Under the pieces are notes generated by a model. That model did no database searches, was not told the DNA's origin, and saw only the letters and a list, made by a program, of their open reading frames with translations. Positions 7,505-62,619 of a DNA stretch of 64,000 nucleotides are shown piece after piece. Source of the DNA: Orenia metallireducens (GTDB taxonomy: Bacteria; Bacillota; Halanaerobiia; Halobacteroidales; Halobacteroidaceae); the NCBI RefSeq assembly GCF_003001995.1, contig NZ_PVNB01000011.1, positions 1 to 64,000 on the forward strand. The letters run 5' to 3'. A program made the translations under genes and the position numbers. How positions within the stretch are numbered: the stretch's first letter is position 1; every line of letters starts with the position of its first letter.

Positions 7505-8023
7505 GAAGAGGTTCTAGTCAAGAGAAATGATGAGATTAGCCTTGCTGAGATTGAAGAGTTGCAGCCAGAGTTAATAATAATCTCGCCTGGTCCTTGTACT
7601 CCTAAGGAAGCAGGGATCTCTTTAGAGGTAATCGATAGATTTAAGGGCAGGATTCCTATGCTCGGAATCTGTTTAGGTCATCAGAGTATTGGACATGCTT
7701 TTGGAGCAAAGATCACTGAAGCAAAGGAGCCTGTTCATGGTAAGGTACATTCTATCAAACATAAGAATAGAGGAGTTTTTAAGAATTTAAATAATCCTCT
7801 AAGGGTAACTAGATATCATTCTTTGTTAATAGATAGGGATACTCTCCCAGAGGAGTTAGAGATAACTGCTGAGAGTGAAGCAGGAGAGATAATGGGGATT
7901 AAGCATAAAGATTACTTGATAGAAGGAGTACAGTTTCACCCTGAGGCAATTCTGACAGAGCAAGGGCATGAACTACTCAATAATTTTATTCTACAATCTA
8001 GGGGAGCGTTAGAGGATGATTAA
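7436..8023 (+). CDS. pabA: Aminodeoxychorismate synthase, glutamine amidotransferase subunit
   Basis: Releases ammonia from glutamine for PabB, the first step toward p-aminobenzoate and folate. Class I amidotransferase of 195 aa with catalytic Cys79 in GICLGHQ and the His/Glu pair in QFHPEA near residue 170. The paralogue trpG lies at 55223 in the trp operon. This copy is assigned to folate because it overlaps pabB and heads the pab-fol operon. It overlaps pabB by 8 nt. The first 23 codons are duplicated at 251-319. Confidence 0.93.
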
Positions 8024-9365
8024 GGAGTTAGAGAGTGAATTATCAGCTTTTGAACTATATACTATCTTTAAGGATGAAGAGCATAGCTTCATTTTGGATA
8101 GTGCTATGGGGGAGAAGAGGCTAGGGAGATATTCTTTTATCAGTGCTAACCCTTTTAAGGTACTCAAATTTAGAGATAGTTCTAAAAATCCATTAGAAGA
8201 GTTGAGAGAAGAATTGAATAAATATAAGGTTGAAAACAATAGTGATCTTCCTTTTATTGGGGGAGCTGTGGGCTATCTATCCTATGATTTAGTCCATTAT
8301 ATAGAGGATATACCCAAAAGTACAATCGATGATATAGGAATACCTGAATTGTATATGGGTTTTTATGATTGGGTGATAGTGGTAGATCATTTAAAGTCAA
8401 AGACTTATCTAGCAACTCCAGAGTTGAATATAGCTAAAGAGGCTGAAAGAATTAAGGAGATTACAGAGACAATTAGGGATAATGAGATAAAATACAATTA
8501 TACTATTGCTTCAGAGCTAGGGGAATATCAGTCTATCATCTTAAAATCTAACTTTGCAAAGGATGATTATTTAGAGACGATTGAGCAGGTGAGGAGATAT
8601 ATCAAGTCTGGTGATATCTATCAAGCTAATTTAACCCAACGCTTTACAGGGGAAGTTGCTGCTTCAAGTTATGAGTTGTACCGAGATTTAAGAAGAAATA
8701 GCCCTGCTCCCTTTGGAGCATTTTTGAATTTTGGAGATGTTGATATATTATCTAATTCTCCAGAAAGGTTCATTCAGGTTAGAGACAGAATTGTAGAGAC
8801 TAGACCGATTAAGGGGACTAGACCAAGAGGAAAGACAGCATATGAGGATGAAGTTTTAAAATCAGAGCTCTTAAATAGTGAGAAGGATAGAGCAGAGTTG
8901 TTGATGATAGTGGATTTAGAGCGGAATGATTTGGGGAAGGTCTCTAAGGTAGGAACAGTTAAGGTTCCTGAGTTATTTGAGCTGGAGGAGTACACTAATG
9001 TCCATCATTTGGTAGCAACAGTCCAAGGAGAGTTGAGAGAGGATAAGGATTTGGTTGATTTGATTGAAGCTACTTTCCCTGGAGGGTCGATTACTGGGGC
9101 ACCGAAGATAAGAGCCATGGAGATAATCGACGAATTGGAGCCTACACAGAGGAGTGTCTATACCGGGGCTATAGGTTATCTTGGCTTTGATGGTTCTTTG
9201 GATTTGAATATAGCTATTAGAACAATTATTAAGAAGAGGAATCAGATTTATTTCCAAGTTGGTGGTGGGATAACTTGGGATTCAAATCCTAAAGAAGAGT
9301 ATCAAGAGACTTTAGATAAAGCAGAATCTATTATGAGAACAGTTAGGGGATATTATGAAGAATAA
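8016..9365 (+). CDS. pabB: Aminodeoxychorismate synthase component I
   Basis: Converts chorismate plus ammonia to 4-amino-4-deoxychorismate. 449 aa with an N-terminal anthranilate-synthase-like domain and a C-terminal chorismate-binding domain. The deciding motif is [10 protein letters not shown], whose Lys266 is the covalent-catalysis lysine of PabB. The trpE paralogue at 53745 has PIAGT at this place. [20 protein letters not shown] is the conserved chorismate/Mg site. It overlaps pabA by 8 nt and pabC by 11 nt. A loose set of GAG/TAG triplets covers its start, see findings. Confidence 0.95.
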
Positions 9366-27671: not shown

Positions 27672-27748
27672 CGGAGCATGGCGCAGTTTGGTAGCGCACC
27701 TGGTTTGGGACCAGGGGGTCGCAGGTTCAAATCCTGCTGCTCCGACCA
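27672..27748 (+). tRNA. tRNA-Pro (TGG)
   Basis: 77 nt including an encoded CCA. Acceptor arm CGGAGCA with TGCTCCG, anticodon TGG in CCTGGTTTGGGACCAGG, and T-loop GTTCAAATC. First gene of the cluster. Confidence 0.95.
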
Positions 27749-27849
27749 TTTAAATACAGTGAAGAGTAACGAGTGAGAAGTAAGCAATTAAGATCTTAAA
27801 GTTCTTAAACTAGTCACCGTTCACTACTAGCTGATTACTGATTTTACAT

Positions 27850-27926
27850 GCGGGAGTAGCTCAGTTGGCTAGAGCACCAGCCTTCCAAGCTGGGTGTCGC
27901 CAGTTCGAATCTGGTTTCCCGCTCCA
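27850..27926 (+). tRNA. tRNA-Gly (TCC), copy 1
   Basis: 77 nt with encoded CCA. Acceptor GCGGGAG with TTCCCGC, anticodon TCC in CCAGCCTTCCAAGCTGG. The sequence is identical to the copy at 28223. Confidence 0.95.
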
Positions 27927-28018
27927 TTATTACAATTAATAATGAATAGAGAATAATTAATAATTTGAATTCTTTTATTTATTATTTATGAATTAGTATG
28001 TATTAATTGTTTTACTAT

Positions 28019-28095
28019 GTGCCTGTAGCTCAGCCGGACAGAGCAACGGCCTTCTAAGCCGTGGGTCAGAGGTTCGAATCCTCTCAGGCATGCCA
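28019..28095 (+). tRNA. tRNA-Arg (TCT)
   Basis: 77 nt with encoded CCA. Acceptor GTGCCTG with CAGGCAT, anticodon TCT in ACGGCCTTCTAAGCCGT. Flanking sequence on the left resembles that before tRNA-Arg (ACG) at 28569. Confidence 0.95.
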
Positions 28096-28222
28096 TTTTA
28101 ATAAAATAGTTTCATTTAGAATAAACTGCTTATAGGCAGTATATTTTTTTATGTTTAAAACTTAGTCAATTTGAGATTAAAAATTTAAATTTTTAAACTT
28201 TAACTAGTAACTAAAGTATTGT

Positions 28223-28299
28223 GCGGGAGTAGCTCAGTTGGCTAGAGCACCAGCCTTCCAAGCTGGGTGTCGCCAGTTCGAATCTGGTTTCCCGCTCCA
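28223..28299 (+). tRNA. tRNA-Gly (TCC), copy 2
   Basis: Identical in all 77 nt to 27850-27926. The first about 37 nt of the downstream spacer are also similar (ATTACAATTAA.AATGAATA), which indicates a recent local duplication. Confidence 0.95.
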
Positions 28300-28383
28300 T
28301 CATTACAATTAACAATGAATAAATAATAATTAATATAGAAGTTGAAATAATGTTTTTCTTAAAGAATTAAAAAATCTTTATTT

Positions 28384-28486
28384 GCAATGAATTAACACGA
28401 ATTACAATAATCAAAGGCAAAAGAATAAATTAATAATTTAGAATTATCTTTGGTTTAAATTTGCGTAAATTAGCTAGATTCGTTGC
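28384..28486 (+). repeat. Dispersed MITE-like repeat, copy 3
   Basis: 103 bp, GCAATGAATTAACACGAATT at one end and GATTCGTTGC at the other. It aligns with copy 2 (10770-10872) throughout. It lies in the spacer of the second Gly-Arg tRNA block, and the corresponding spacer of the first block lacks it. Confidence 0.9.
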
Positions 28487-28568
28487 TAAATGAGTTTAAG
28501 TATTGATTTTTGATCAATGAAATTCTTTTTGTTATTTGTATACTATTATTTATTAATTGTTTTACTAT

Positions 28569-28645
<77 letters not shown>

Positions 28646-37561: not shown

Positions 37562-37589
37562 AATATGTGATAGTTAAATAGATTATCAA

Positions 37590-37870
37590 AAGCAATGAAG
37601 GAGAGGAGTAGGTTAATCCCTCCCTAACAGAGATAAATACCCTTAGGCTGGAAGGTATTTTTAGGGATATTAGCTGAAGTAGCTCTTGAGCTGTTAAGCT
37701 GAAAATTCAGTAGGCTTAATCGGAAGCTAGCCGTTATCTAGTATCAGGTTCATTAGAACAGTTATTTATTCTTACATATACCTGAAGTGAGTGCTAAGCT
37801 AGAAATAAGGTGGTACCGCGGAAGATAGAGACTCTTTCGTCCTTAATTTAAGGATGGAGGGGTCTTTTTA
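37590..37870 (+). promoter_or_regulatory. T-box leader of valS
   Basis: tRNA-sensing antitermination leader. The T-box sequence AAGGTGGTACCGCGG lies at 37807-37821. The terminator AGACTC...GGGGTCT with a T-run is at 37829-37868. Upstream are the stem I features, a GA-rich motif (GGAGAGGAGTAG, about 37600) and the AGAG-type bulge region. Uncharged tRNA-Val should stabilise the antiterminator and switch valS on. I could not place the specifier codon with confidence. Valine is inferred from the downstream gene. Confidence 0.93.
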
Positions 37871-37914: not shown

Positions 37915-40581
37915 ATGAGTGAAGAGAAGAAGAATTTATCAACAACCTATGATCCTAGTCAAGTAGAAGAGAAATGGTATGAATATTGGAATTCCCAAGG
38001 TTATTTCCATGCAGAACCGAATGCTGAGAAGGAGTCTTTTACAATTATGATGCCTCCTCCAAATGTAACTGGTCAATTACATATCGGTCATGCCTTAGAT
38101 ATGACTTTCCAAGATATCTTAACTAGATGGAAGAGAATGCAAGGCTATGAAGCTTTATGGGTGCCAGGAACCGACCATGCTAGTATCGCTACTGAGGTTA
38201 AGGTAGTTAAGAAGATGAAAGAAGAGGAAGGTTTAAATAAAGAGGACGTTGGTCGTGATGGATTTTTAGAGAGAGCTTGGAAATGGAAAGAGGAGTATGG
38301 TGGACGAATTACTAAACAGCTTAAAAAGTTAGGTGTCTCTTGTGATTGGCAGAGAGAGAGATTTACCATGGATGAAGGATGTAATGAGGCTGTCAAAGAA
38401 GCCTTTGTTCAATTATATGAGAAAGGTTTAATCTATCAAGGAGATTATATAGTCAACTGGTGTCCAGAGTGTAAGACTACTCTATCGGATATAGAGGTAG
38501 AACATGAGGACAAGCCAGGTAAACTATATCATATTAGATATAATCTTAAGGATAGTGATGATTATATTGTAGTAGCTACTACCCGTCCAGAGACATTGCT
38601 TGGAGATACAGGGGTAGCAGTAAATCCTGATGATGAACGTTATCAAGATATAATCGGTAAACAGGTTATTGTACCAGTAGTCAATCGGGAGATTGAGATA
38701 GTAGCTGATGATTATGTAGACTCTGAATTTGGTACAGGTCTAGTTAAGGTAACTCCTGCCCATGACCCTAATGACTTTGAAATCGGTGAACGCCATGATT
38801 TAGAGATTATCAAAGTAATTGGTGATGATGCAGTGATGACCAAAGCAGCAGCAAAATATGAAGGCTTAGATCGTTATGAATGTAGAACCCAGTTAATTGA
38901 TGATTTGAAATCTGCAGGATTAATTGAGAAGATAGAGGAGCATGACCATTCTGTTGGACAATGCTATCGTTGTGATACTACTATTGAACCATTAGTATCT
39001 AAGCAATGGTTTGTAGCTATGGACAAGCTAGCTAAGCCTGCTATTGAGGCGGTTAAAGATGGTGATATTAATTTTGTTCCAGATAGATTCTCTAAAGTGT
39101 ACTTCAACTGGATGGAGAATATCAGAGATTGGTGTATCTCTCGCCAACTATGGTGGGGTCATCAGATTCCAGTCTGGTATTGCCAAGACTGTGATGAGGT
39201 AATTGTAAGAACAAAAGAGCCAGCAAAATGTCCAAAGTGTGCTAGCACTAATCTAAAGCAGGATGAAGATGTACTAGATACTTGGTTTAGCTCAGGACTA
39301 TGGCCTTTCTCTACTCTAGGGTGGCCTGACAATAAAGAGGATGTAGATTACTTCTATCCAACTGATGTACTAGTAACTGGTAGAGATATCATCTTCTTCT
39401 GGGTAGCTAGAATGATCTTTATGGCATTAGAGTGTAAAGGTGAGATACCATTTAAGGATATTTATATTCATGGACTTGTTAGAGACTCTGAAGGTCGTAA
39501 GATGAGTAAGTCTTTAGGAAATGGTGTAGATCCAATTGAGGTAATTGAAGAATTTGGTACAGATACTTTAAGATTCAGTTTGATTACTGGAAATACTCCA
39601 GGTAATGATATTAGATATCGCCCCGAAAGAGTAGAATCAAGCCGTAACTTTGCTAATAAACTATGGAATGCTTCCCGCTTTGTATTGATGAACCTAGAAG
39701 ATTTTGACTTAGAAGCGATAGATTATGGAGAGCTAAATTATACTTTAGCAGATCAATGGATTCTAAGTAGACTGAATAAGAAGATAAATCAAGTAACTGA
39801 ATTATTGGAAGAGTATCAATTTGGTCAAGCAACTCAAGAGTTATATGACTTTGTGTGGAGAGAGTTCTGTGATTGGTATATCGAATTGGTTAAACCTAGA
39901 TTATATCAACAAGAGAATTCAGTTGACCGTCAGACTGCTCAGTACGTAACTTGGTTTACCTTAGATAATATCTTGAGATTATTACATCCATTTATGCCCT
40001 TTATTACTGAGGAGATTTGGCAACATGTAACTGCTAAAGAAGAAGAGAGCTTGATGGTCTCTCATTGGCCAGAAGCTGATAGCTTAGTTACAAATAATCA
40101 AGCAGAGTCTAAAATGGAGTTAGTGATGGATATAATTCGTAGTATCAGAAATATCAGAAATGAGATGAAGGTCAATCCAGGTAGAAAGATTACAGCCATT
40201 TTAAGCTCTGAAGTTGAGGGTAAGTTAGCGGTAGTAGAAGAAGGAAAGGATTATATTGCTGATCTGGCTAATATTGAAGAGCTAACTATCAGTAAGGAAG
40301 TAGCTGCTCGACCAGAACAGGCGTCTACTGCAATTACTAGTGAGATTGAGATTATCTTACCCCTTGCTGGTATGGTAGATATAGAGAAGGAGATTGCTCG
40401 TTTAGAGGATGAGATTAAGAAGATGGAAGCTGAGATTAAACGTGCTACAGGTAAGTTATCTAATCCAGGATTTGTGAATAATGCCCCAGATCATCTGGTG
40501 GAAGAAGAGAGAAGAAAGAAAGAAGAATATAGTGCTAAAAAGGTACAGTTAGAAGAGACCTTAGCAAGCTTAAAAGGATAA
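37915..40581 (+). CDS. valS: Valine--tRNA ligase
   Basis: Class I aminoacyl-tRNA synthetase of 888 aa. The HIGH motif is HIGHALD (near residue 59) and KMSKS is RKMSKSLGN. The CP1 editing domain carries VATTRPETLLGDTGVAV, and a zinc-binding-like pair (CQDCDE, CPKC) is present. The C-terminal 80 residues form the ValRS-specific coiled coil (VDIEKEIARLEDEIKKMEAE). Controlled by the T-box leader directly upstream. Confidence 0.97.
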   Translation: MSEEKKNLSTTYDPSQVEEKWYEYWNSQGYFHAEPNAEKESFTIMMPPPNVTGQLHIGHALDMTFQDILTRWKRMQGYEALWVPGTDHASIATEVKVVKKMKEEEGLNKEDVGRDGFLERAWKWKEEYGGRITKQLKKLGVSCDWQRERFTMDEGCNEAVKEAFVQLYEKGLIYQGDYIVNWCPECKTTLSDIEVEHEDKPGKLYHIRYNLKDSDDYIVVATTRPETLLGDTGVAVNPDDERYQDIIGKQVIVPVVNREIEIVADDYVDSEFGTGLVKVTPAHDPNDFEIGERHDLEIIKVIGDDAVMTKAAAKYEGLDRYECRTQLIDDLKSAGLIEKIEEHDHSVGQCYRCDTTIEPLVSKQWFVAMDKLAKPAIEAVKDGDINFVPDRFSKVYFNWMENIRDWCISRQLWWGHQIPVWYCQDCDEVIVRTKEPAKCPKCASTNLKQDEDVLDTWFSSGLWPFSTLGWPDNKEDVDYFYPTDVLVTGRDIIFFWVARMIFMALECKGEIPFKDIYIHGLVRDSEGRKMSKSLGNGVDPIEVIEEFGTDTLRFSLITGNTPGNDIRYRPERVESSRNFANKLWNASRFVLMNLEDFDLEAIDYGELNYTLADQWILSRLNKKINQVTELLEEYQFGQATQELYDFVWREFCDWYIELVKPRLYQQENSVDRQTAQYVTWFTLDNILRLLHPFMPFITEEIWQHVTAKEEESLMVSHWPEADSLVTNNQAESKMELVMDIIRSIRNIRNEMKVNPGRKITAILSSEVEGKLAVVEEGKDYIADLANIEELTISKEVAARPEQASTAITSEIEIILPLAGMVDIEKEIARLEDEIKKMEAEIKRATGKLSNPGFVNNAPDHLVEEERRKKEEYSAKKVQLEETLASLKG

Positions 40582-52350: not shown

Positions 52351-53112
52351 ATGAATGATTTTTGGCAATTAGTGATCAAGGGAATTCCTATTGGAATCTC
52401 AAATACTCTACCAGGGATTAGTGGTGGAACCATAGCTTTAATCTTGAATATATATGAGAGATTGATCAATGGTATTAAGAGGATTAATCTTAAAGTTTTA
52501 ATACCGATTGGTTTAGGGGCAGTAATAGGGGTTTTATTTGGCTCTAAGGTTATTACGGGTCTGTTAGAAAGTGATTATCGTGGTTTTCTGGTTGCTTTTT
52601 TGTTGGGATTAATCTTTGCTTCTAGCAAAGTAACCGTTCAAGAGGTAGAGAAATTTAATTTAAAGACTATTGCTCTGGTACTTTTAGGCTTAATTCTTGC
52701 TTATAGATATTCAATAGATATTGATTCGGCAGAAGCCATGCAAGAGGTTAATCTATTTAAGTTCTTCTGGGGGGGAGCTATTGGTAGTGTAGCGATGATA
52801 TTGCCAGGAGTTAGTGGTGGAACAATCCTTATTATGTTGGGATTATATCAAGGGGTCTTACAGGCGATTACTACTTTAGATTTACCTATAATAATCTCCT
52901 TTGGCTTTGGAGTAGTAGCAGGGTTGTTGAGTTTTTCTTGGGTATTATCTTACTTATTGGAACATTATAATTCTTTATTAATGGCATTTTTAACAGGGTT
53001 GATTTTGGGATCGATGAGAAGTGTTATTCCAGATCAGATTGGTCTTTTAGAGGTTATAGGATTTGTTTTAGGAGTTTTGTTGATTTGGTGGTTGGATAAA
53101 AGAAGGGATTGA
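52351..53112 (+). CDS. DUF368 membrane protein, probable undecaprenyl-phosphate translocase
   Basis: 253 aa with about seven to eight membrane helices. Two related motifs, LPGISGGTIAL near residue 20 and LPGVSGGTILI near 150, mark the inverted-repeat halves of DUF368. Members (PopT) were recently linked to returning undecaprenyl phosphate across the cytoplasmic membrane for wall synthesis. Applying that role here is inference from family membership. AGAGGTG precedes the ATG. No functional link to the trp genes downstream is apparent. Confidence 0.85.
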   Translation: MNDFWQLVIKGIPIGISNTLPGISGGTIALILNIYERLINGIKRINLKVLIPIGLGAVIGVLFGSKVITGLLESDYRGFLVAFLLGLIFASSKVTVQEVEKFNLKTIALVLLGLILAYRYSIDIDSAEAMQEVNLFKFFWGGAIGSVAMILPGVSGGTILIMLGLYQGVLQAITTLDLPIIISFGFGVVAGLLSFSWVLSYLLEHYNSLLMAFLTGLILGSMRSVIPDQIGLLEVIGFVLGVLLIWWLDKRRD

Positions 53113-53163
53113 TTAAAGTCTAGATTTATCATCTGGTAAATATGGTAAATCTTCAATCTAGTA

Positions 53164-53192
53164 TTGACACATCTACTAAATTTGTATATCAT
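53164..53192 (+). promoter_or_regulatory. Promoter of mtrB and probably the trp operon
   Basis: TTGACA at 53164-53169 and TATCAT at 53187-53192 with a 17-nt spacer. I find no good promoter between mtrB and the triplet array, so this one may feed the whole mtrB-trp transcript. Confidence 0.8.
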
Positions 53193-53227
53193 AATATTAA
53201 CTAAGTGTTTTCATTAAGGAGGCAATA

Positions 53228-53449
53228 ATGAATATACCAAAAAGTGAAGAATATATAGTAATTAAAGCCTTAGAGGATGGAGTTACTATTATAGGTTTAA
53301 CTCGTGGGCAGCAGACTAAATTTCATCATACAGAGAAGTTAGATGCTGGTGAAGTGATGGTTGCTCAATTTACAGAGCATACATCTGCAATTAAGATTAG
53401 AGGAAAAGCTGAGCTTATGACAAAGCATGGTAGTGTAGAATCAGAATGA
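53228..53449 (+). CDS. mtrB: Tryptophan RNA-binding attenuation protein TRAP
   Basis: 73-aa protein that forms an 11-subunit ring. When bound to tryptophan it wraps RNA carrying GAG/UAG triplets. Diagnostic stretches are VIKALEDGVTIIGLTRG, TKFHHTEKLDAGEVMVAQFT, and EHTSAIKIRGKAEL, which contain the Lys-Lys-Arg RNA-contact residues and the Thr/Gly tryptophan-pocket residues of Bacillus TRAP. It lies 35 nt before the first triplet cluster of its own target leader. In Bacillus mtrB is beside folE instead. No anti-TRAP gene is seen in the window. AAGGAGG precedes the ATG. Confidence 0.95.
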   Translation: MNIPKSEEYIVIKALEDGVTIIGLTRGQQTKFHHTEKLDAGEVMVAQFTEHTSAIKIRGKAELMTKHGSVESE

Positions 53450-53484
53450 AATAATTGATAATTTACAATGTACAATTAAAAGAT

Positions 53485-53516
53485 TAGTAGAGATTAGATA
53501 ATAGATGAGATGAGAG
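53485..53516 (+). promoter_or_regulatory. Upstream GAG/UAG triplet cluster in the trp leader
   Basis: TAG/GAG triplets at 53485, 53490, 53495, 53502, 53507, 53512 and 53514. Several are 5 nt apart, one gap is 7. It may be an accessory TRAP contact upstream of the main array. Confidence 0.5.
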
Positions 53517-53542
53517 AAACTGAATTTAAAACTGAATATGAT

Positions 53543-53591
53543 TAGCTGAGAAGAGTAGAGTTGAGACGAGATGAGTAGAGTGTGAGATTAG
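53543..53591 (+). promoter_or_regulatory. Main TRAP-binding array of the trp leader
   Basis: Ten GAG/TAG triplets start at 53543, 53548, 53553, 53558, 53563, 53568, 53573, 53578, 53584 and 53589. Nine intervals are eight times 5 nt and once 6 nt, which is the spacing preferred by TRAP (2-nt spacers). The array begins 93 nt after the mtrB stop and ends 52 nt before the terminator stem. TRAP bound here should favour termination when tryptophan is plentiful. Confidence 0.92.
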
Positions 53592-53595
53592 CCAA

Positions 53596-53643
53596 GGGGT
53601 AAGTATATCTGTATCTAATTACAGGTATTATTATACATATTCC
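53596..53643 (+). promoter_or_regulatory. Possible antiterminator-like hairpin
   Basis: GGGGTAAGTATA (53596-53607) can pair with TATACATATTCC (53632-53643), with one mismatch and two G-U pairs. An inner stem is CTGTA with TACAG. It fills the space between the triplet array and the terminator. I could not find convincing overlap with the terminator strand, so its role is unproven. Confidence 0.4.
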
Positions 53644-53676
53644 AAGGTCATCAGACTTTAGTCTGGTGACCTTTTT
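53644..53676 (+). terminator. Intrinsic terminator (attenuator) of the trp leader
   Basis: AAGGTCATCAGACT (53644-53657) pairs with AGTCTGGTGACCTT (53660-53673) over 14 bp with one G-U pair and a tight loop, followed by a T-run. It is before trpE and after the TRAP array, as in Bacillus trp attenuation. Confidence 0.93.
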
Positions 53677-53697
53677 GTTTATAAATAACATTTTAAA

Positions 53698-53723
53698 GAG
53701 GAGATGAGTTAAGATGAGTAGAG
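53698..53723 (+). promoter_or_regulatory. TRAP-like triplet site at the trpE translation start region
   Basis: GAG triplets at 53698, 53701, 53706, 53716 and 53721. The last four keep a 5-nt register with one vacant position (53711). They cover the ribosome site and ATG of a short upstream ORF. Could mediate translational control of trpE. Confidence 0.6.
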
Positions 53724-53761
53724 ATAAGAAGAAGGTGATATTGAATGTACTATCCAGCTAA
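53714..53761 (+). CDS. Short upstream ORF overlapping the trpE start
   Basis: 15 codons (MSRDKKKVILNVLSS) starting at ATG 53714, with GAGGAGA about 9 nt upstream, ending at TAA 53759-53761, which is 17 nt past the trpE start. The peptide has no Trp codon, so classical Trp-codon attenuation is excluded. Translation through it would pass over the trpE ribosome site and could couple the two. No protein function expected. Whether it is translated is unknown. Confidence 0.45.
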   Translation: MSRDKKKVILNVLSS

Positions 53762-55223
53762 GGAAGAATTCTTAAAGCTAAGTGAAGATGCCAATATAAT
53801 TCCTGTCTATAAAGAGATAGTTGCTGATATGGAGACTCCAGTATCTGCTTTTAAGAAATTGAAGGGGGAGGGTTACTCTTATCTACTAGAAAGTGTAGAA
53901 CAGGGGCAGAAGATAGGGCGCTATTCCTTTATTGGGATTGATTATCATGCAATAGTCAGCTCCAAGGATGGTCAATTAGTAGTAAAGGATAGCTCTGGCA
54001 AGATATTAAAGAGTAAAGATACAGAGAATCCACTCCAAGATTTGAAGGATATTTTATCTAAGTATCAATCGGTAGAGGTTGAAGGCTTGCCCTTATTTTA
54101 TGGTGGTGCTGTAGGTTATTTAGGTTATGATGTTGTGAAATATTTTGAAAATATCCCTCAAGATAATGAGGATGATCTGGTTTTACCAGAGATGAACTTT
54201 ATCTTAAGTGATACCTTAGTAATCTTTGACCACCTACATCACAGTATCAAAGTAGTTACTAATGTTAAAGTAAGTGATAACCTTGAAAGTGACTATAGAT
54301 TAGCTAAAGAGAAGATCGATAAGATAATTACTAAGCTAGATACCCCATTAAAGGAAGAGAGTAGATCAGAAGTTAAAGAAAAAAAATTAAAGTTTAAATC
54401 TAATATCAGTAAAGAAGAGTTTATGAAGAATGTAGAGAAAGCTAAAGATTATATTAGAGAAGGGGATATCTTTCAGGTGGTTTTATCACAGAGGTTAGAG
54501 GTTCCTATAACTGCAGGGTCCTTTGATATCTATCGCCAGCTAAGAAGGGTCAATCCTTCCCCTTATATGTACTATTTAGACTTTGTAGATTTTGAGATTG
54601 TTGGTTCATCACCAGAGCTTCTAGTAAGGGTAGAGGATGGAGTTATTGAGAATAGACCGATTGCTGGAACACGCAAGAGAGGTAAAGACAGTCAAGAGGA
54701 TAGAGAGCTAGCTCAAGATTTATTAGGTGATGAGAAGGAGCGGGCAGAGCATATTATGCTAGTTGATCTAGGACGTAATGATATTGGAAAGGTTAGCGAG
54801 TATGGGAGTGTAGAGGTAAGTAGATTAATGGAGATTGAGTACTATTCCCATGTAATGCATATCGTCTCTGATGTTCAAGGTAAGCTAAAAAATGATGAGG
54901 ATATCTATTCTGGTTTACAGTCTTGTTTTCCAGCTGGAACCTTATCAGGTGCTCCTAAGATTAGGGCAATGGAGATTATTGATGAGTTAGAGAATACTAG
55001 AAGAGGACCTTATGGAGGAAGTATTGGTTACTTTGGTTATTCTGGGAATCTAGATAGCTGTATTACGATTAGGACTATGGTTATTAAAGATAAGAAGGCA
55101 TATGTTCAGGCAGGTGCTGGTATTGTCGCAGATTCTGACCCAGAATTTGAATATCAAGAGACCTTAAATAAAGCACAGGCATTATTGGAAGCGGTAAGAT
55201 TGGCTGAAGGGGGTGTCTATTAA
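53745..55223 (+). CDS. trpE: Anthranilate synthase component I
   Basis: Converts chorismate to anthranilate, the committed step of tryptophan synthesis. 492 aa. Early motif YLLESVEQGQKIGRYSFIG includes the LLES-type feedback site for tryptophan. The chorismate-binding part has RPIAGTRKRG, the TrpE form of the motif where pabB has Lys, and [22 protein letters not shown] 53745 is preceded by AAGGTGA. A stop codon directly before it excludes a longer start. Its stop overlaps the trpG ATG by one base. Confidence 0.96.
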   Translation: MYYPAKEEFLKLSEDANIIPVYKEIVADMETPVSAFKKLKGEGYSYLLESVEQGQKIGRYSFIGIDYHAIVSSKDGQLVVKDSSGKILKSKDTENPLQDLKDILSKYQSVEVEGLPLFYGGAVGYLGYDVVKYFENIPQDNEDDLVLPEMNFILSDTLVIFDHLHHSIKVVTNVKVSDNLESDYRLAKEKIDKIITKLDTPLKEESRSEVKEKKLKFKSNISKEEFMKNVEKAKDYIREGDIFQVVLSQRLEVPITAGSFDIYRQLRRVNPSPYMYYLDFVDFEIVGSSPELLVRVEDGVIENRPIAGTRKRGKDSQEDRELAQDLLGDEKERAEHIMLVDLGRNDIGKVSEYGSVEVSRLMEIEYYSHVMHIVSDVQGKLKNDEDIYSGLQSCFPAGTLSGAPKIRAMEIIDELENTRRGPYGGSIGYFGYSGNLDSCITIRTMVIKDKKAYVQAGAGIVADSDPEFEYQETLNKAQALLEAVRLAEGGVY

Positions 55224-55798
55224 TGATTTTAGTGATCGATAATTATGATTCCTTTACTTATAACTTGGTACAGTTAATTGGAGAGATGGACCATGAGATT
55301 GAAGTTATAAGAAATGACAAGGTTAGTGTGGATAGGATTAGAGAGCTAGCACCTAACAAGATAATTATCTCACCAGGACCAGGTAGACCAGAGGATGCAG
55401 GGATATCTTTAGATTTAGTTAAAGAGTTGTCAGGAGAGATACCGATTTTAGGAATTTGCTTAGGTCACCAGACTATGGGGGCAGCCTTTGGAGCTAAGAT
55501 AATCAAAGCACCAGAACTAATTCATGGGAAGGTATCTAAGATAATTAATAAAGATAAAGGTATTTTAGCAGGAATAGGTGATTTTGAAGCAACTCGTTAT
55601 CATTCTTTAATTATTGACCGGGGTACTTTAACTAATAACTTTGAAATTACTGCTGAGACTGAAGATGGAATAATCATGGCAATTGAGAATCAAGAGAAGG
55701 GTTTATATGGACTACAGTTCCATCCTGAATCGATAATGAGTAAGACAGGTAAGGAGATTGTTAATAATTTTTTAGCGGTGAAGAGTGAAGAGATTTGA
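55223..55798 (+). CDS. trpG: Anthranilate synthase component II
   Basis: Glutamine amidotransferase that supplies ammonia to TrpE. 191 aa. Catalytic Cys is in GICLGHQ near residue 79, and FHPESIM carries the His and Glu. Closely related to pabA at 7436 (same [12 protein letters not shown] start), but here coupled to trpE by a one-base overlap. So this organism keeps separate amidotransferases for folate and tryptophan, unlike Bacillus subtilis, which shares one. Confidence 0.95.
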   Translation: MILVIDNYDSFTYNLVQLIGEMDHEIEVIRNDKVSVDRIRELAPNKIIISPGPGRPEDAGISLDLVKELSGEIPILGICLGHQTMGAAFGAKIIKAPELIHGKVSKIINKDKGILAGIGDFEATRYHSLIIDRGTLTNNFEITAETEDGIIMAIENQEKGLYGLQFHPESIMSKTGKEIVNNFLAVKSEEI

Positions 55799-55868: not shown

Positions 55869-55892
55869 GAGGATGAGCAGAGATGAGAAGAG
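55869..55892 (+). promoter_or_regulatory. TRAP-like site over the trpD start
   Basis: Five GAG triplets at 55869, 55875, 55880, 55885 and 55890. Four intervals are 6, 5, 5, 5 nt. They include the GGAGG ribosome site and flank the ATG at 55883. More GAG/TAG triplets occur about 40 nt on, at 55931-55945. A bound TRAP ring would block ribosome access. Confidence 0.6.
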
Positions 55893-56908
55893 TGATTAAT
55901 CAGGTGATAAATGGAGAAGATTTATCAATTGAGGAGAGTAGAGAGACGATGGAAGCTATTATGAGTGGTGAAGCTACTGAAGCTCAGATAGCCAGTTTTA
56001 TTACAGCTTTGAGAATGAAGGGTGAGACCATTGAAGAGATAACAGGGGCAGCCTTGGTGATGAGAGAGAAGTCCTCTAAAATAGAGACTAATCAAGAAGT
56101 ATTAGTAGATGTCTGTGGTACTGGTGGGGATAAGCTGAATACTTTTAATATCTCAACTACTACAGCCTTTGTGGTGGCAGCAGCAGGTGTAGCTGTGGCT
56201 AAGCATGGTAACCGTTCAGTCTCTAGTAAGAGTGGGAGTGCTGATTTGTTAGAGAAATTAGGGGTCAATCTCAATCTTTCGCCAGCTCAAGTAGGAAGTT
56301 GCATTGATGAGATTGGGATAGGATTTATGTATGCCCCCGTCTTCCATCAAGCAATGAAGTATGCTATTGGACCAAGAAAAGAGATAGGAGCAAGGACTAT
56401 CTTTAATCTTTTAGGACCTTTGACCAATCCTGCTCAGGCAGAAGTACAGTTATTAGGAGTTTATAGTCCCGAATTAACAGAACCAATTGCTTATGTATTG
56501 AAGAACTTAGGTGTTAAGTCAGCCTTTGTAGTCCATGGAATGCTTGGTTTAGATGAATTATCAACGGTAGGAGAGACTAAGATTAGTCAGCTTAAAGACG
56601 AAGAAGTAAAGACTTATAATCTCCATCCAACAGATTTGGGGCTAGAAGAAACTACTATAGAGGAGTTAGCAGGAGGAAATCCTGAAGAGAATGCTAAGAT
56701 TACTTTAGATATTCTCAAGGGCAAGGTTGATAAGAAGAGGGATATTGTAATCTTAAATGCAGCAGCAGCTTTAGTAGCAGCAGATAAAGCTGAGGGTCTA
56801 GCTGAAGGAATAGAGTTGGCTGCTAAAATAATAGATGAAGGTTTGGCTTTGAAGAAGTTAGAGGAGCTAGTGGATGTAACTAACCGATTGGCTAAGGAGG
56901 TAAGCTAA
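55883..56908 (+). CDS. trpD: Anthranilate phosphoribosyltransferase
   Basis: Attaches phosphoribose from PRPP to anthranilate. 341 aa. The PRPP motif is VDVCGTGGDKLNTFNIST near residue 77, and the anthranilate region KHGNRSVSSKSGSAD is intact. GPRKEIGARTIFNLLGPLTN closes the active site. Start at ATG 55883 lies within a run of GAG triplets. The following trpC starts one base after the stop. Confidence 0.96.
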   Translation: MRRVINQVINGEDLSIEESRETMEAIMSGEATEAQIASFITALRMKGETIEEITGAALVMREKSSKIETNQEVLVDVCGTGGDKLNTFNISTTTAFVVAAAGVAVAKHGNRSVSSKSGSADLLEKLGVNLNLSPAQVGSCIDEIGIGFMYAPVFHQAMKYAIGPRKEIGARTIFNLLGPLTNPAQAEVQLLGVYSPELTEPIAYVLKNLGVKSAFVVHGMLGLDELSTVGETKISQLKDEEVKTYNLHPTDLGLEETTIEELAGGNPEENAKITLDILKGKVDKKRDIVILNAAAALVAADKAEGLAEGIELAAKIIDEGLALKKLEELVDVTNRLAKEVS

Positions 56909-56909
56909 A

Positions 56910-57680
56910 TTGATTTTAGATAAGATAGTTGAACATAAAAAATTAGAAGTAGAGCAGCAGAAACAAGAAGTTAGTTTAGCAGAGTTAAAGCAGAAGATTG
57001 AGACTTTGGAACATACTAGAGATTTTAAAGGTGCTTTAGAGGCTGAGGGAATGAGCCTGATTGCTGAAATTAAGAAGGCTTCACCATCTAAAGGGGTAAT
57101 ACGGGAAGATTTTAATCCTATTGCTATAGCTAAAGAGTATCAACAGGCAGGGGCTAAAGCATTATCGGTCTTAACTGATGAAAAGTTTTTTCAAGGAAAA
57201 TTAGACTATTTAACTGGGGTAAAAGCAGAGGTTGATTTACCTTTGTTAAGAAAAGACTTTATCATTGATCCTTATCAGATTTATCAAGCTAGAGCCTGTG
57301 GTGCTGATGCTATCTTATTGATTGTAGCTATTTTAAGTAAAGAGCAATTAAAGGATTATTTAGCTTTAGCAAAATCTCTAGGATTGGGTGTTCTGGTAGA
57401 GGTTCATAATAGAAAGGAATTGACCCTTGTTTTACAGGAAGATTGTGATATAATTGGAATTAATAATCGAGATTTGAGGGTCTTTGAGGTTGACTTAGCG
57501 ACAACTTTAGGGTTAAAAAGATCGATTCCTAAAGATAAGGTAGTCATCAGTGAAAGTGGGATTAAGAATAGAAATGATGTAGAACTGCTGGCTGACCATG
57601 GGATTGATGGTATTCTAGTAGGAGAGGCACTGATGAGAAGTACTAATATCTCTACTAAGATAGGTGAGCTAGTAGGATGA
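56910..57680 (+). CDS. trpC: Indole-3-glycerol phosphate synthase
   Basis: TIM-barrel enzyme that closes the indole ring. 256 aa. IAEIKKASPSKGVI supplies the catalytic Lys and substrate-phosphate contacts, LRKDFIIDPYQIYQARACGAD the second Lys, and NNRDLRVFEVD and SESGIK the later loops. Start is TTG, 9 nt after AAGGAGG inside the end of trpD. It overlaps trpF by ATGA. Confidence 0.95.
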   Translation: MILDKIVEHKKLEVEQQKQEVSLAELKQKIETLEHTRDFKGALEAEGMSLIAEIKKASPSKGVIREDFNPIAIAKEYQQAGAKALSVLTDEKFFQGKLDYLTGVKAEVDLPLLRKDFIIDPYQIYQARACGADAILLIVAILSKEQLKDYLALAKSLGLGVLVEVHNRKELTLVLQEDCDIIGINNRDLRVFEVDLATTLGLKRSIPKDKVVISESGIKNRNDVELLADHGIDGILVGEALMRSTNISTKIGELVG

Positions 57681-58282
57681 CAAAAGTTAAAATCTGTGGG
57701 ATTACTAATTTAGATGATGCTAAAGTGGCTGTTGAATATGGGGCAGATTATTTAGGCTTTATCTTTGCTAAGAGTCCTAGAAAGGTCAGTCCTTATAAGG
57801 TAAAGGAGATTATTGAGCAGTTACCAGAGGATGTTAAGAAGGTAGGGGTCTTTGCCAATCAGTCTTTAGAAGAGATAGCAGAGGTAATTAGTAGCTGTTC
57901 CTTAGATTATTTGCAGCTTCATGGTGATGAGAGTCCAGAATATTGTCAGGAGTTTAACATACCAGTTATTAAGGTTTTTAGAGTCAAAGATGAAAGCTAT
58001 TTAGAGCAGTTAAAGGAGTATCAGGTTGATAAATATCTACTTGATACCTACCATCCTAATAAGCTGGGGGGAGTAGGTAAAACCTTTAATTGGGAGCTTG
58101 CTAAACTGGCTAAAGAATATGGAGAAATTATCATTGCTGGTGGTTTAAATCCTGCCAATGTCAAGCAAGCAATAGACTCAGTCAATCCTTATGGAGTAGA
58201 TGTTAGTAGTGGAGTTGAAGCCCAAGCTGGAATTAAAGATAAGAAGAGATTAGAAGAGTTTATTAGAAGAGTAAAGAAGTAA
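57677..58282 (+). CDS. trpF: Phosphoribosylanthranilate isomerase
   Basis: Amadori isomerase of 201 aa, TIM barrel. KICGITNLDDA contains the catalytic Cys, LLDTYHPNKLGGVGKTFNW includes the catalytic Asp, and IIAGGLNPANV and GVDVSSGVE hold the phosphate. It overlaps trpC by four bases. The next gene is separated by a 103-nt gap with an inverted repeat and a TRAP-like array. Confidence 0.95.
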   Translation: MTKVKICGITNLDDAKVAVEYGADYLGFIFAKSPRKVSPYKVKEIIEQLPEDVKKVGVFANQSLEEIAEVISSCSLDYLQLHGDESPEYCQEFNIPVIKVFRVKDESYLEQLKEYQVDKYLLDTYHPNKLGGVGKTFNWELAKLAKEYGEIIIAGGLNPANVKQAIDSVNPYGVDVSSGVEAQAGIKDKKRLEEFIRRVKK

Positions 58283-58350
58283 GAGTGTGTAGTATGAGTG
58301 TGATTTCAAAATAAAACTTTAGATTTGTATTTTAACCCTCACACAGACAC
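58283..58350 (+). repeat. Intergenic inverted repeat upstream of trpB
   Basis: GAGTGTGTAGTATGAGTGTG on the left faces CCTCACACAGACACTT on the right. Similar in make-up to 24803-24880. Confidence 0.55.
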
Positions 58351-58367
58351 TTATAATAAAAAATAAT

Positions 58368-58410
58368 TAGAGGAGATGAGAAGAGATGAGTGTAGAGTTA
58401 AAGAGAAGAG
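58368..58410 (+). promoter_or_regulatory. TRAP-like array over the trpB start
   Basis: Triplets TAG 58368, GAG 58373, 58378, 58383, 58388, TAG 58393, GAG 58403 and 58408 all fall on one 5-nt register with a single vacancy at 58398. Eight of nine positions are filled. The array covers the GGAG ribosome site, the ATG at 58386 and the first eight codons. Strong candidate for TRAP-mediated repression of trpB translation. Confidence 0.75.
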
Positions 58411-59579
58411 GTCAATTTGGTGAATTTGGTGGTAAGTATGTACCAGAGTTGGTGATTTCGGCTTTAGATGAGCTAGATGAGGCTTATGCTAAGTATAAGG
58501 ATGACCCAGAATTTCAAGAGGAATTGGACTATTATTTAAAGCATTATGTAGGGCGAGCTAATCCATTATATTATGCAGAACTTTTGACTAAAAAATTAGG
58601 TGGCGCAAAGGTCTATTTAAAACGTGAAGACCTGAATCATACTGGGGCACATAAGATTAATAATGCCTTAGGTCAGGTTTTATTGGCTAAACGGATGGGT
58701 AAGAAGAGAATTATAGCTGAAACAGGGGCAGGACAGCATGGTGTAGCTACGGCTACTGTAGCAGCAATGTTTGGTATGGAATGTGAAGTCTTTATGGGAG
58801 CAGAGGATGTAGAGCGTCAAGCCCTGAATGTATTTAGGATGAAACTCTTAGGTGCTAAGGTAACTCCAGTGACAGAAGGGACAGCTACTCTAAGTGATGC
58901 TATAGATGTTGCCTTTAGAAACTGGGTAGAGAGAATAGAAGATACCTTCTATTTATTTGGTACAGCAGCAGGTCCTCATCCTTATCCTACAATCGTAAGG
59001 GATTTTCAAGCAATAATTGGTCAAGAAGTTAAAGAGCAGATTTTAGAAGCAGAGGATAGGTTACCTGATTATTTAGTGGCTTGTGTTGGTGGAGGAAGTA
59101 ATGCTATTGGTTTGTTCTATCCATTTGTTGAAGATAAGGATGTTAAGATGATTGGTGTAGAGGCAGCTGGACATGGTGTAGATACTGATAAGCATGCTGC
59201 TACCTTAACCAAAGGTACTAAAGGTATCATTCATGGTGTTAAGACCTATGTCTTACAGGATGAATATGGTCAGATTCTTCCAGCATATTCTATTTCCGCA
59301 GGGTTAGATTACCCAGGTGTTGGTCCTGAACATAGTTATCTTAGAGATATTAATCGAGCTGAGTATGTCTCAGTTACTGATCAAGAGGCTTTAGAAGCTT
59401 TTCAGTTATTGTCTGAATTAGAAGGAATTATTCCAGCTTTAGAAAGCTCTCATGCTGTAGCTTATACTTTAAAGTTGGCAAAAGAACTTAAAGAGGATCA
59501 GATTATAGTTGTCAACCTCTCTGGTCGTGGTGACAAAGATGTATATACTGTAGCAGATAATTTAGGAATTGAGTTATAG
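58386..59579 (+). CDS. trpB: Tryptophan synthase beta chain, copy 1
   Basis: Condenses indole with serine to tryptophan, PLP-dependent, in complex with TrpA. 397 aa. PLP Lys is in [13 protein letters not shown], catalytic Glu in AETGAGQHG, phosphate loop GGGSNAIG, and the late LSGRGDKD. The COMM-domain segment [10 protein letters not shown] has Ser where enteric TrpB has Lys167. Highly similar to the second copy at 60576, including its upstream GAG array. The downstream methyltransferase-like gene starts 7 nt after the stop. Confidence 0.95.
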
Positions 59580-60562: not shown

Positions 60563-60587
60563 GAGATGAGAAGAGATGAGTGCAGAG
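60563..60587 (+). promoter_or_regulatory. TRAP-like site over the second trpB start
   Basis: GAG triplets at 60563, 60568, 60573 and 60578 in strict 5-nt register, then CAG at 60583 and GAG at 60585. They overlap the ribosome site and ATG 60576. The words match those before trpB copy 1 (GGAGATGAGAAGAGATGAG), so the control site seems to have been duplicated along with the gene. Confidence 0.6.
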
Positions 60588-61775
60588 TTAAAAGATAATG
60601 TTAAAGGATTATTTGGTGAATTTGGTGGTAAGTATGTTCCAGAATTGATTATTCCAGCTTTAGAAGAGCTAGAAGAGGCTTATGATAAATATAAGGATGA
60701 CCCGGAATTTCAAGAGGAGTTTAACTATTATTTAAAACAGTATGTAGGGCGAGCTAATCCATTATATTATGCAGAGCGTTTAACTAAAAAGCTAGGTGGA
60801 GCTAAGATTTACTTAAAGCGTGAAGACTTAAATCATATGGGAGCCCATAAGATCAATAATGCTTTAGGTCAAGTTCTATTAGCTAAAAGAATGGGTAAAA
60901 AGAGAGTTATAGCTGAAACGGGAGCAGGGCAGCATGGTGTAGCAACAGCTACTGTAGCCGCAATGTTTGGTATGGAATGCGAAATTTTTATGGGAGCAGA
61001 GGATGTTAAGCGTCAAGCTTTAAATGTATTTAGAATGAAGTTGTTAGGTGCTAAAGTAACTTCAGTTACAGATGGTACTCAAACTCTAAGTGATGCAGTA
61101 GATGCTGCCTTAAGAAACTGGGTAGAGAGAATTGATGATACCTTTTATCTATTAGGTTCTGCTGTAGGTCCACATCCATATCCAACAATAGTTCGTGATT
61201 TCCAATCAATGATTGGTGAAGAGGCTAAAGAGCAGATTCTTGAACAAGAAGGAAGATTACCTGATTATCTAGTAGCCTGTGTTGGTGGAGGAAGTAATGC
61301 TATAGGATTATTTTATCCATTTGTTGAAGATAAGGATGTCAAGATGATTGGTGTAGAGGCAGCGGGATTAGGTGTAGATACTGATAAGCATGCTGCAACG
61401 ATGGCTAAAGGAAGAAAAGGTGTTATCCATGGTTTTAAGACCTATGTACTACAAGATGATAATGGTCAGATTATGCCAGTTCACTCTATCTCAGCAGGAT
61501 TAGATTATCCAGGTGTAGGACCAGAACATAGTTATCTTAAGGATATTGGCAGAGCAGAATATGTATCAGTTACCGATGATGAAGCTGTCAATGCCTTCCA
61601 AGTATTATGTGAAAGTGAAGGAATCATTCCAGCTTTAGAGAGTTCTCATGCAATTGCCCATGTTCTAAAATTGGCTCCGGAATTAGATCAAGATCAAGTT
61701 ATTATTATGAACCTATCTGGAAGAGGAGATAAGGATGTTTATACCTTAGCAGATAGATTAGGAGTAGAATTATAA
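60576..61775 (+). CDS. trpB: Tryptophan synthase beta chain, copy 2
   Basis: 399 aa, clearly a duplicate of copy 1. All core residues are kept: Lys in [10 protein letters not shown], Glu in [33 protein letters not shown] and LSGRGDKD. Differences include HMGAHK for [16 protein letters not shown] for [10 protein letters not shown], and a changed N-terminus. It lies directly before trpA, so it is the likely partner of TrpA, while copy 1 may act alone or with it. Both copies look functional. Confidence 0.94.
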
Positions 61776-61815: not shown

Positions 61816-62619
61816 GTGAGTAGAATTGCTACTACTTTTGCTAGATTGCAGGATCAAGGACAACAAGCCTTTATTCCTTTTTTGATGACCGGTGACCCTA
61901 CTTTAGAGTTAACTAAAGAGTTGGTCTTGGAGGCTGAAAGAAATGGAGCAGATATAATAGAGTTAGGGATTCCTTTTTCTAATCCTTTGGCAGATGGACC
62001 TACTATTCAAAGAGCAGGAAAGAGAAGTTTAGCCCATAGAACTAACTTAAAAGATATTTTTAAGTTAGTTAAAGAGATTAGAACTGAGAGTCAAATTCCA
62101 ATAGTTTTAATGGGATACTTTAATTCTATCTTTAATTATGGTTTAGAAAGACTAATCAACAGCTGTGAAGAGGTTGGTGTAGATGGTCTGATTATTCCTG
62201 ACTTGCCGATGGGTGAAGATGAGGAATTAAGAGCTTTAAGTAATGAGGTAGATATTATTTCATTAGTAGCTTTAAATAGTTCTCCAAAGCGAATCAAAGA
62301 GTTAGCAGAGAATTCACAAGGATTTATCTATGCAGTGGCTACTTTAGGGACTACAGGAGAGAGAGGAGAGGTCTCTAAAGAGGTAAAGGCAAAAGTAGAA
62401 GAGATTAAATCTTTAACTTCTACCCCAGTAGCAGTTGGTTTTGGAATCTCTAAGCCAGAACATGTCAAAGAGGTTGCCTCCTTTGCAGATGGGGCTATTG
62501 TTGGTAGTGCTATTATTAAGAGGTTAGAGGATAATTTGGAATTACTTCCAGAGAGTGAAGCTGAGTTCATTAATAGTGTAGGGGAGATTGTTTCAACTTT
62601 GACTTCTCCTCTTAATTAA
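61816..62619 (+). CDS. trpA: Tryptophan synthase alpha chain
   Basis: Cleaves indole-3-glycerol phosphate to indole, which passes to TrpB. 267 aa, TIM barrel. The catalytic Glu and Asp lie in IELGIPFSNPLADGPTIQ. Asp60 of LADG is intact but the residue equal to Asp56 is Asn. The usual TGVTG loop is LGTTGERG. GFIYAVATLG and GFGISKPEHV hold the phosphate. GTG start with AGGAG 10 nt upstream. Last gene of the trp operon, followed by a terminator. Confidence 0.95.
   Translation: MSRIATTFARLQDQGQQAFIPFLMTGDPTLELTKELVLEAERNGADIIELGIPFSNPLADGPTIQRAGKRSLAHRTNLKDIFKLVKEIRTESQIPIVLMGYFNSIFNYGLERLINSCEEVGVDGLIIPDLPMGEDEELRALSNEVDIISLVALNSSPKRIKELAENSQGFIYAVATLGTTGERGEVSKEVKAKVEEIKSLTSTPVAVGFGISKPEHVKEVASFADGAIVGSAIIKRLEDNLELLPESEAEFINSVGEIVSTLTSPLN

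Follow-up and report, generated by a model that had tools for sequence, protein, structure and literature searches.

The trp operon of Orenia metallireducens lies downstream of mtrB, the gene for TRAP, and its leader carries repeated GAG/UAG triplets (array 2) that very probably form a binding site for this tryptophan-sensing ring protein, a textbook RNA-binding regulator on which work has been done almost entirely in Bacillus. We propose with high confidence, from sequence comparisons, that array 2 serves a trp attenuator as its TRAP operator and that TRAP has additional, translational operators at other gene starts. In the window (the whole stretch of DNA analysed, 64 kb), array 2 is the top-scoring array on either strand. 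A first-pass annotation had placed ten (G/U)AG triplets (KAG) with a 5-nt period at 53543-53589, and a recount returned exactly these starts (53543, 53548, 53553, 53558, 53563, 53568, 53573, 53578, 53584 and 53589); an AAG at 53594 keeps the period and makes an eleventh. This agrees with the approximately 9-11 (G/U)AG repeats, separated by 2-3-nt spacers, that characterize a TRAP-type attenuator in a trp leader. The same annotation held the regularity to lie beyond chance, as is confirmed by dinucleotide-preserving shuffles (3000 for each of three regions around array 2): none matched ten triplets at 5/6-nt spacing, none reached eight at exactly 5 nt, and the shuffled sequences averaged 2.6-2.9 triplets with maxima of 7-8. 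In the 4.1-Mb genome, scanned like all genome-wide searches with fixed patterns, perfect six-triplet arrays of 5-nt period occur only at array 2 and at the starts of trpB and trpP; the reversed-pattern control of the genome and relatives scans also matches GAG arrays and is not independent of them. The interpretation of array 2 as a TRAP site, already offered by the annotation, is strongly supported by mtrB upstream, trpEGDCFB downstream, conservation and the spacer pairing described below, and was incomplete in that mtrB, the flanking arrays at 53480-53514 and 53696-53734 (arrays 1 and 3) and the arrays over translation starts had been missed.

The regulator gene and the plan of the leader

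The product of mtrB scores 140.9 bits against PF02081 (curated cut-off 21.3) and matches TRAP chains in the PDB with E values of 6.5e-30 (1c9s) and better; in the alignment to 1c9s the segments contacting tryptophan and RNA (TRG, FHH.EKLD and AQFTEHTSA.K.RG) are conserved. A Lys at TRAP residue 60 was considered as a mechanistic clue and dropped, as the solved TRAP 1c9s has Lys there too. The gene ends 93 nt before array 2. Conservation was assessed in the window genome and 12 relatives (G001-G012), all Halanaerobiales, drawn from ten genera including the window's own and from two families, the Halobacteroidaceae (eight members with the window genome) and a second family, f2 (G008-G012). The order promoter, mtrB, leader array(s), terminator and trp genes is kept in all 13 genomes, each with an 11/12-position promoter match 60-141 nt 5' of mtrB, and this promoter probably also drives the leader and the trp genes. 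Most relatives have 6-8 triplets at the position of array 1, beginning in several of them at the mtrB stop or a few bases away; there is no space in these for a separate trp promoter, which makes it probable that the trp transcription unit begins with mtrB. In G003 and G004 a triplet array also covers the Shine-Dalgarno sequence (SD) of mtrB itself, which suggests that TRAP represses its own synthesis in these two genomes.

The shared plan proceeds from array 1 (about 6-8 triplets) across an AT-rich gap, usually of 15-29 nt, to array 2 (about 7-15 triplets), and then through a structured stretch and the terminator to array 3, which lies over the next start codon. Exceptions are a short array 1 in G001, near fusion of arrays 1 and 2 in G011, and the lack of both array 3 and the leader ORF in G005. 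No Rfam leader family matched the trp leader, and no T-box (RF00230) match was found at 53100-53800. Elsewhere in the window, a T-box leader (RF00230, 115 bits) at 37586-37847 precedes a probable aminoacyl-tRNA synthetase gene, an ORF that opens with MSEEKKNLSTTYDPS near 37917, and five tRNA genes (Pro, Gly, Arg, Gly, Arg) at 27672-28645 stand ~100-270 nt apart, a loose spacing for a tRNA cluster.

Table 1. Features of the mtrB-trp region of the window, with shuffle p values for the triplet arrays
Feature	Coordinates	Strand	Details
mtrB promoter	53164-53192	+	TTGACA-17-TATCAT; 11/12 consensus match
mtrB (TRAP)	53228-53449	+	73 aa; PF02081, E 1.2e-41
Leader array 1	53480-53514	+	AAG TAG GAG TAG TAG GAG GAG; steps 5,5,5,7,5,5 nt; p 0.0005
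Leader array 2	53543-53596	+	10 KAG + AAG = 11 triplets; p 0.0005
Predicted antiterminator	53570-53652	+	fold without terminator 3' half
Intrinsic-terminator-like hairpin (candidate attenuator)	53644-53673	+	13 bp, 4-nt loop, 6 G-C pairs
Array 3	53696-53734	+	8 NAG (4 GAG, 4 AAG); steps 5,5,5,5,5,5,6; p 0.002
Leader ORF MSRDKKKVILNVLSS	53714-53761	+	15 codons; overlaps trpE start
trpE	53745-55223	+	PF00425, PF04715
trpG	55223-55798	+	no array at start
TRAP-like array over trpD SD and start	55869-55892	+	5 GAG; p 0.001
trpD	55883-56908	+	
trpC	56910-57680	+	
trpF	57677-58282	+	
TRAP-like array over trpB1 SD and start	58368-58410	+	8 KAG; p 0.0025
trpB1	58386-59579	+	
TRAP-like array over trpB2 SD and start	60563-60594	+	6 triplets (5 KAG); p 0.0005
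trpB2	60576-61775	+	second copy, 83% identical to trpB1
trpA	61816-62619	+	from position and ORF sequence; homologues 3' of trpB in relatives

Array 3, the leader ORF and the aroF-like series

Array 3 lies across the leader ORF's SD and start codon and extends as far as the SD of trpE; its AAG triplets are of a kind that TRAP binds more weakly. It recurs in seven of the eight Halobacteroidaceae, and in f2 it lies over the start of an aroF-like gene. A short ORF of 12-18 codons, beginning inside array 3 and stopping at +7 to +16 from the trpE ATG, is likewise present in 7/8 Halobacteroidaceae; that of the window, MSRDKKKVILNVLSS, contains no Trp codon. In f2 (loci L127-L131) the position of the leader ORF, between leader and trpE, is occupied by a DAHP-synthase-like ORF (PF00793), whose sequence is intact, substituted or truncated depending on the genome. 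The expected GPCAVE and DPSHATG motifs are present in G012; some or all of them are missing from G009, G010 and G011; the ORF of G008 is shortened to 76 codons; and in G008-G011 it overlaps trpE in the manner of the leader ORF. The simplest inference is that in Halobacteroidaceae an aroF gene ahead of trpE appears to have eroded to a leader ORF in which both the predicted TRAP operator and the trpE overlap persist. In Halanaerobacter jeridensis (G003; L122, ~2270 onward) a TnpB-like ORF, called by eye from its translation, is inserted after the trp terminator and ahead of array 3, which still adjoins trpE.

The overlap bears on how trpE itself would be controlled. TRAP might repress the leader ORF alone at array 3, with trpE expression falling through translational coupling and not by direct repression, a variant that draws on the ORF stop lying across the trpE start in those seven genomes, and on the similar disposition of the aroF-like ORF in f2; we take it seriously while leaning somewhat against it. 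On the other hand, trpE has an SD-like GGTGAT of its own, inside the leader ORF and beside the last triplet of array 3, so that direct occlusion by TRAP could also occur.

Arrays over the starts of trp genes

In addition to the leader ORF, the starts of trpD, trpB1 and trpB2 carry triplet arrays above background. If the leader array alone were a TRAP attenuator, the arrays at trpD, trpB, trpP and the leader ORF might be mere purine-rich ribosome-binding sites followed by M-R-R N-terminal codons. GAG is favoured by chance at starts because SD sequences are GA-rich, a point addressed by our controls, and the array at the window genome's own trpP attains only p 0.065 against its shuffles because that region is GA-rich; in addition, five-triplet matches of period 5 elsewhere in the genome occur near the control count, and two of these (C16, C34) were discarded as TRAP targets for that reason. 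At some of the GA-rich starts the shuffle test is conservative, and it is not proof of function.

We nevertheless judge this explanation improbable, in view of the distribution of the arrays. Scored from -45 to +24 about start codons refined by rule, 40 non-trp starts in the window give a median of 3.3 and a maximum of 9.4, whereas the trpD start scores 9.5-19.3 in 13/13 Halanaerobiales genomes. The trpG, trpF and trpA starts of the same operons never exceed 7.8, and among all 46 starts of trpG, trpC, trpF and trpA only two do so, both among the 13 trpC starts (Mann-Whitney p 9e-8 against trpD). Among phylum-wide relatives, a trpD-start array (score above 7) accompanies mtrB in 36 of 56 genomes and is found in 0/7 that lack mtrB (Fisher p 0.0016, the mtrB-negative side comprising seven genomes only). 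Two Desulforamulus/Desulfotomaculum loci, scored apart from this set, gave 20.5 and 21.7; the predicted trpD operator seems to be widespread among TRAP-bearing clostridia. The trpP homologues have an array over the SD/start in 9/9 cases. Finally, most of the trpD triplets of f2 precede the start codon, which argues that they are not a coding effect. The trpB arrays are more restricted, being present at both copies in the window genome and its closest relative and lacking in most others; the array at the trpB1 start is found in G001 and, in weaker form, in G003.

Several further features of these loci were recorded. The trpB duplication occurs also in G001, G002 and G003; in the window a methyltransferase-like ORF (59569/59590-60273) separates trpB1 and trpB2, with trpA after trpB2. 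The second-best array score in the window belongs to a run of 11 NAG at 58236-58298, straddling the 3' end of trpF, which probably reflects Lys/Arg/Glu codons. A second anthranilate/aminodeoxychorismate-synthase-like gene at 8016-9365, 44% identical to trpE, has no convincing start array.

The proposed attenuator, its predicted action and known systems

A terminator-like hairpin lies between array 2 and trpE, with equivalents in all 12 relatives. The first-pass annotation had described it as a strong terminator of 14 bp at 53644; it is present there with 13 bp and a folding energy of -19.6 kcal/mol, and "strong" needs qualifying in that the U-tract, UUUGUUU, is interrupted. When the 3' half of the terminator is omitted from the fold, 53570-53574 pair with 53648-53652 and 53578-53584 with 53636-53642, a predicted antiterminator that covers triplets 7-9 of array 2 (53573, 53578 and 53584). 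In a test that shuffled spacer letters with the triplets held fixed, pairing between array 2 spacers and the terminator 5' half exceeded the controls over the 13 genomes, with a combined p of 1.8e-7 that is optimistic because these genomes share ancestry; individual p values ranged from 0.008 to 0.24, the latter, not significant by itself, being that of the window's own leader. Over the clade, the predicted antiterminator overlaps both the triplets and the 5' half of the terminator. No cross-genome pairing excess was found for array 1, either with the terminator (p 0.63) or with the intervening stretch (p 0.96); array 1 was rejected as an antiterminator strand and as a partner of the intervening UAUCUAAU motif, to which it has an 8-bp match in the window with no cross-genome signal.

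The pairing of array 2 with the 5' half of the terminator, and the ability of the intervening region to form hairpins, would also suit a leader in which arrays 1 and 2 regulate through RNA structure and without TRAP. We regard this as very unlikely: pairing does not require a strict (G/U)AG period, mtrB adjoins the arrays, and array 1 retains its triplets though it is without a pairing signal. A chance purine-rich run, for which one could point to other GA-rich coding stretches in the window, is refuted by shuffles that never reached the array and by its conservation over two families.

The array, the TRAP gene, the terminator, the gene order, the conservation of all these and the cross-genome pairing are observed; how TRAP would bind, respond to tryptophan, bring about termination, block translation and affect trpE through a coupled leader ORF we infer as follows. 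As mtrB stands first in the transcription unit, TRAP would be made with or without expression of the trp genes. When tryptophan is plentiful, tryptophan-loaded TRAP would wrap the 11 triplets of array 2, with array 1 perhaps engaging a second TRAP ring or providing extra contacts; the bound protein would make the triplets unavailable to the 5' half of the terminator, and transcription would stop at ~53676. Tryptophan scarcity would instead let the antiterminator form and the trp genes be transcribed. TRAP could also block translation directly, by occupying arrays that overlap ribosome-binding sites: on readthrough transcripts those of the leader ORF/trpE, trpD and trpB, and on another transcript that of the unlinked tryptophan transporter gene trpP. 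One protein, TRAP, may in this way throttle the tryptophan pathway at several points.

We are evenly divided over a broader proposal: that TRAP of Halanaerobiales acts within its own operon at several genes through separate operators (at the attenuator, at the leader ORF ahead of trpE, at trpD and, in some species, at trpB), and that a DAHP-synthase gene ahead of trpE decayed stepwise, from intact through loss of catalytic residues and truncation, to a minigene of 12-18 codons whose sole remaining role is that of a TRAP operator in translational coupling with trpE. A way in which a decaying enzyme gene can yield a regulatory minigene is suggested by the aroF-to-leader-ORF series, and the analysis places predicted TRAP operators gene by gene in the trp operon. 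Regulator, attenuator and operon appear to form a self-contained TRAP cassette in halophilic anaerobic clostridia in which anti-TRAP was not found: no match to PF15777 (rtpA) exceeded the cut-off in 14 genomes, and sub-threshold matches fall inside ORFs of ~380 codons, presumably as DnaJ zinc fingers. The open papers searched yielded no description of trpD operators, of Halanaerobiales TRAP or of the other differences from B. subtilis given below.

Comparison with known systems is most direct for Bacillus subtilis, where mtrB resides in mtrAB, whereas in Orenia it probably heads the trp unit. TRAP of B. subtilis binds 11 (G/U)AG repeats of the trp leader, switching an antiterminator to a terminator (PMC3913778), sequesters the trpE SD via a hairpin, and directly blocks translation of trpG, trpP and ycbK (PMC11255114). 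The Orenia leader resembles that of B. subtilis in its 11 triplets of (G/U)AG type with 2-3-nt spacers, terminator, predicted triplet-overlapping antiterminator, trp genes and homologous TRAP, and differs in having two arrays and a gap of 47 nt, with a hairpin-forming stretch, between array 2 and the terminator. In place of the TRAP-induced SD hairpin at trpE, Orenia has a triplet array at the start. The predicted start-codon operators are like those of B. subtilis trpG, trpP and ycbK in lying over the SD/start, and trpP is a common target; within the operon the candidate targets are the leader ORF/trpE, trpD and trpB and, unlike in B. subtilis, not trpG. Anti-TRAP (rtpA) control has no counterpart found here. 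Other Bacillota and enterics attenuate trp genes by T-box or leader-peptide mechanisms; the Orenia system would share transcription attenuation with these, but its trp leader has no T-box and its leader ORF no Trp codon. By the features tested, it is TRAP attenuation of the known kind in a new predicted layout, with the regulator in cis, a split leader array and multiple putative translational operators within the operon.
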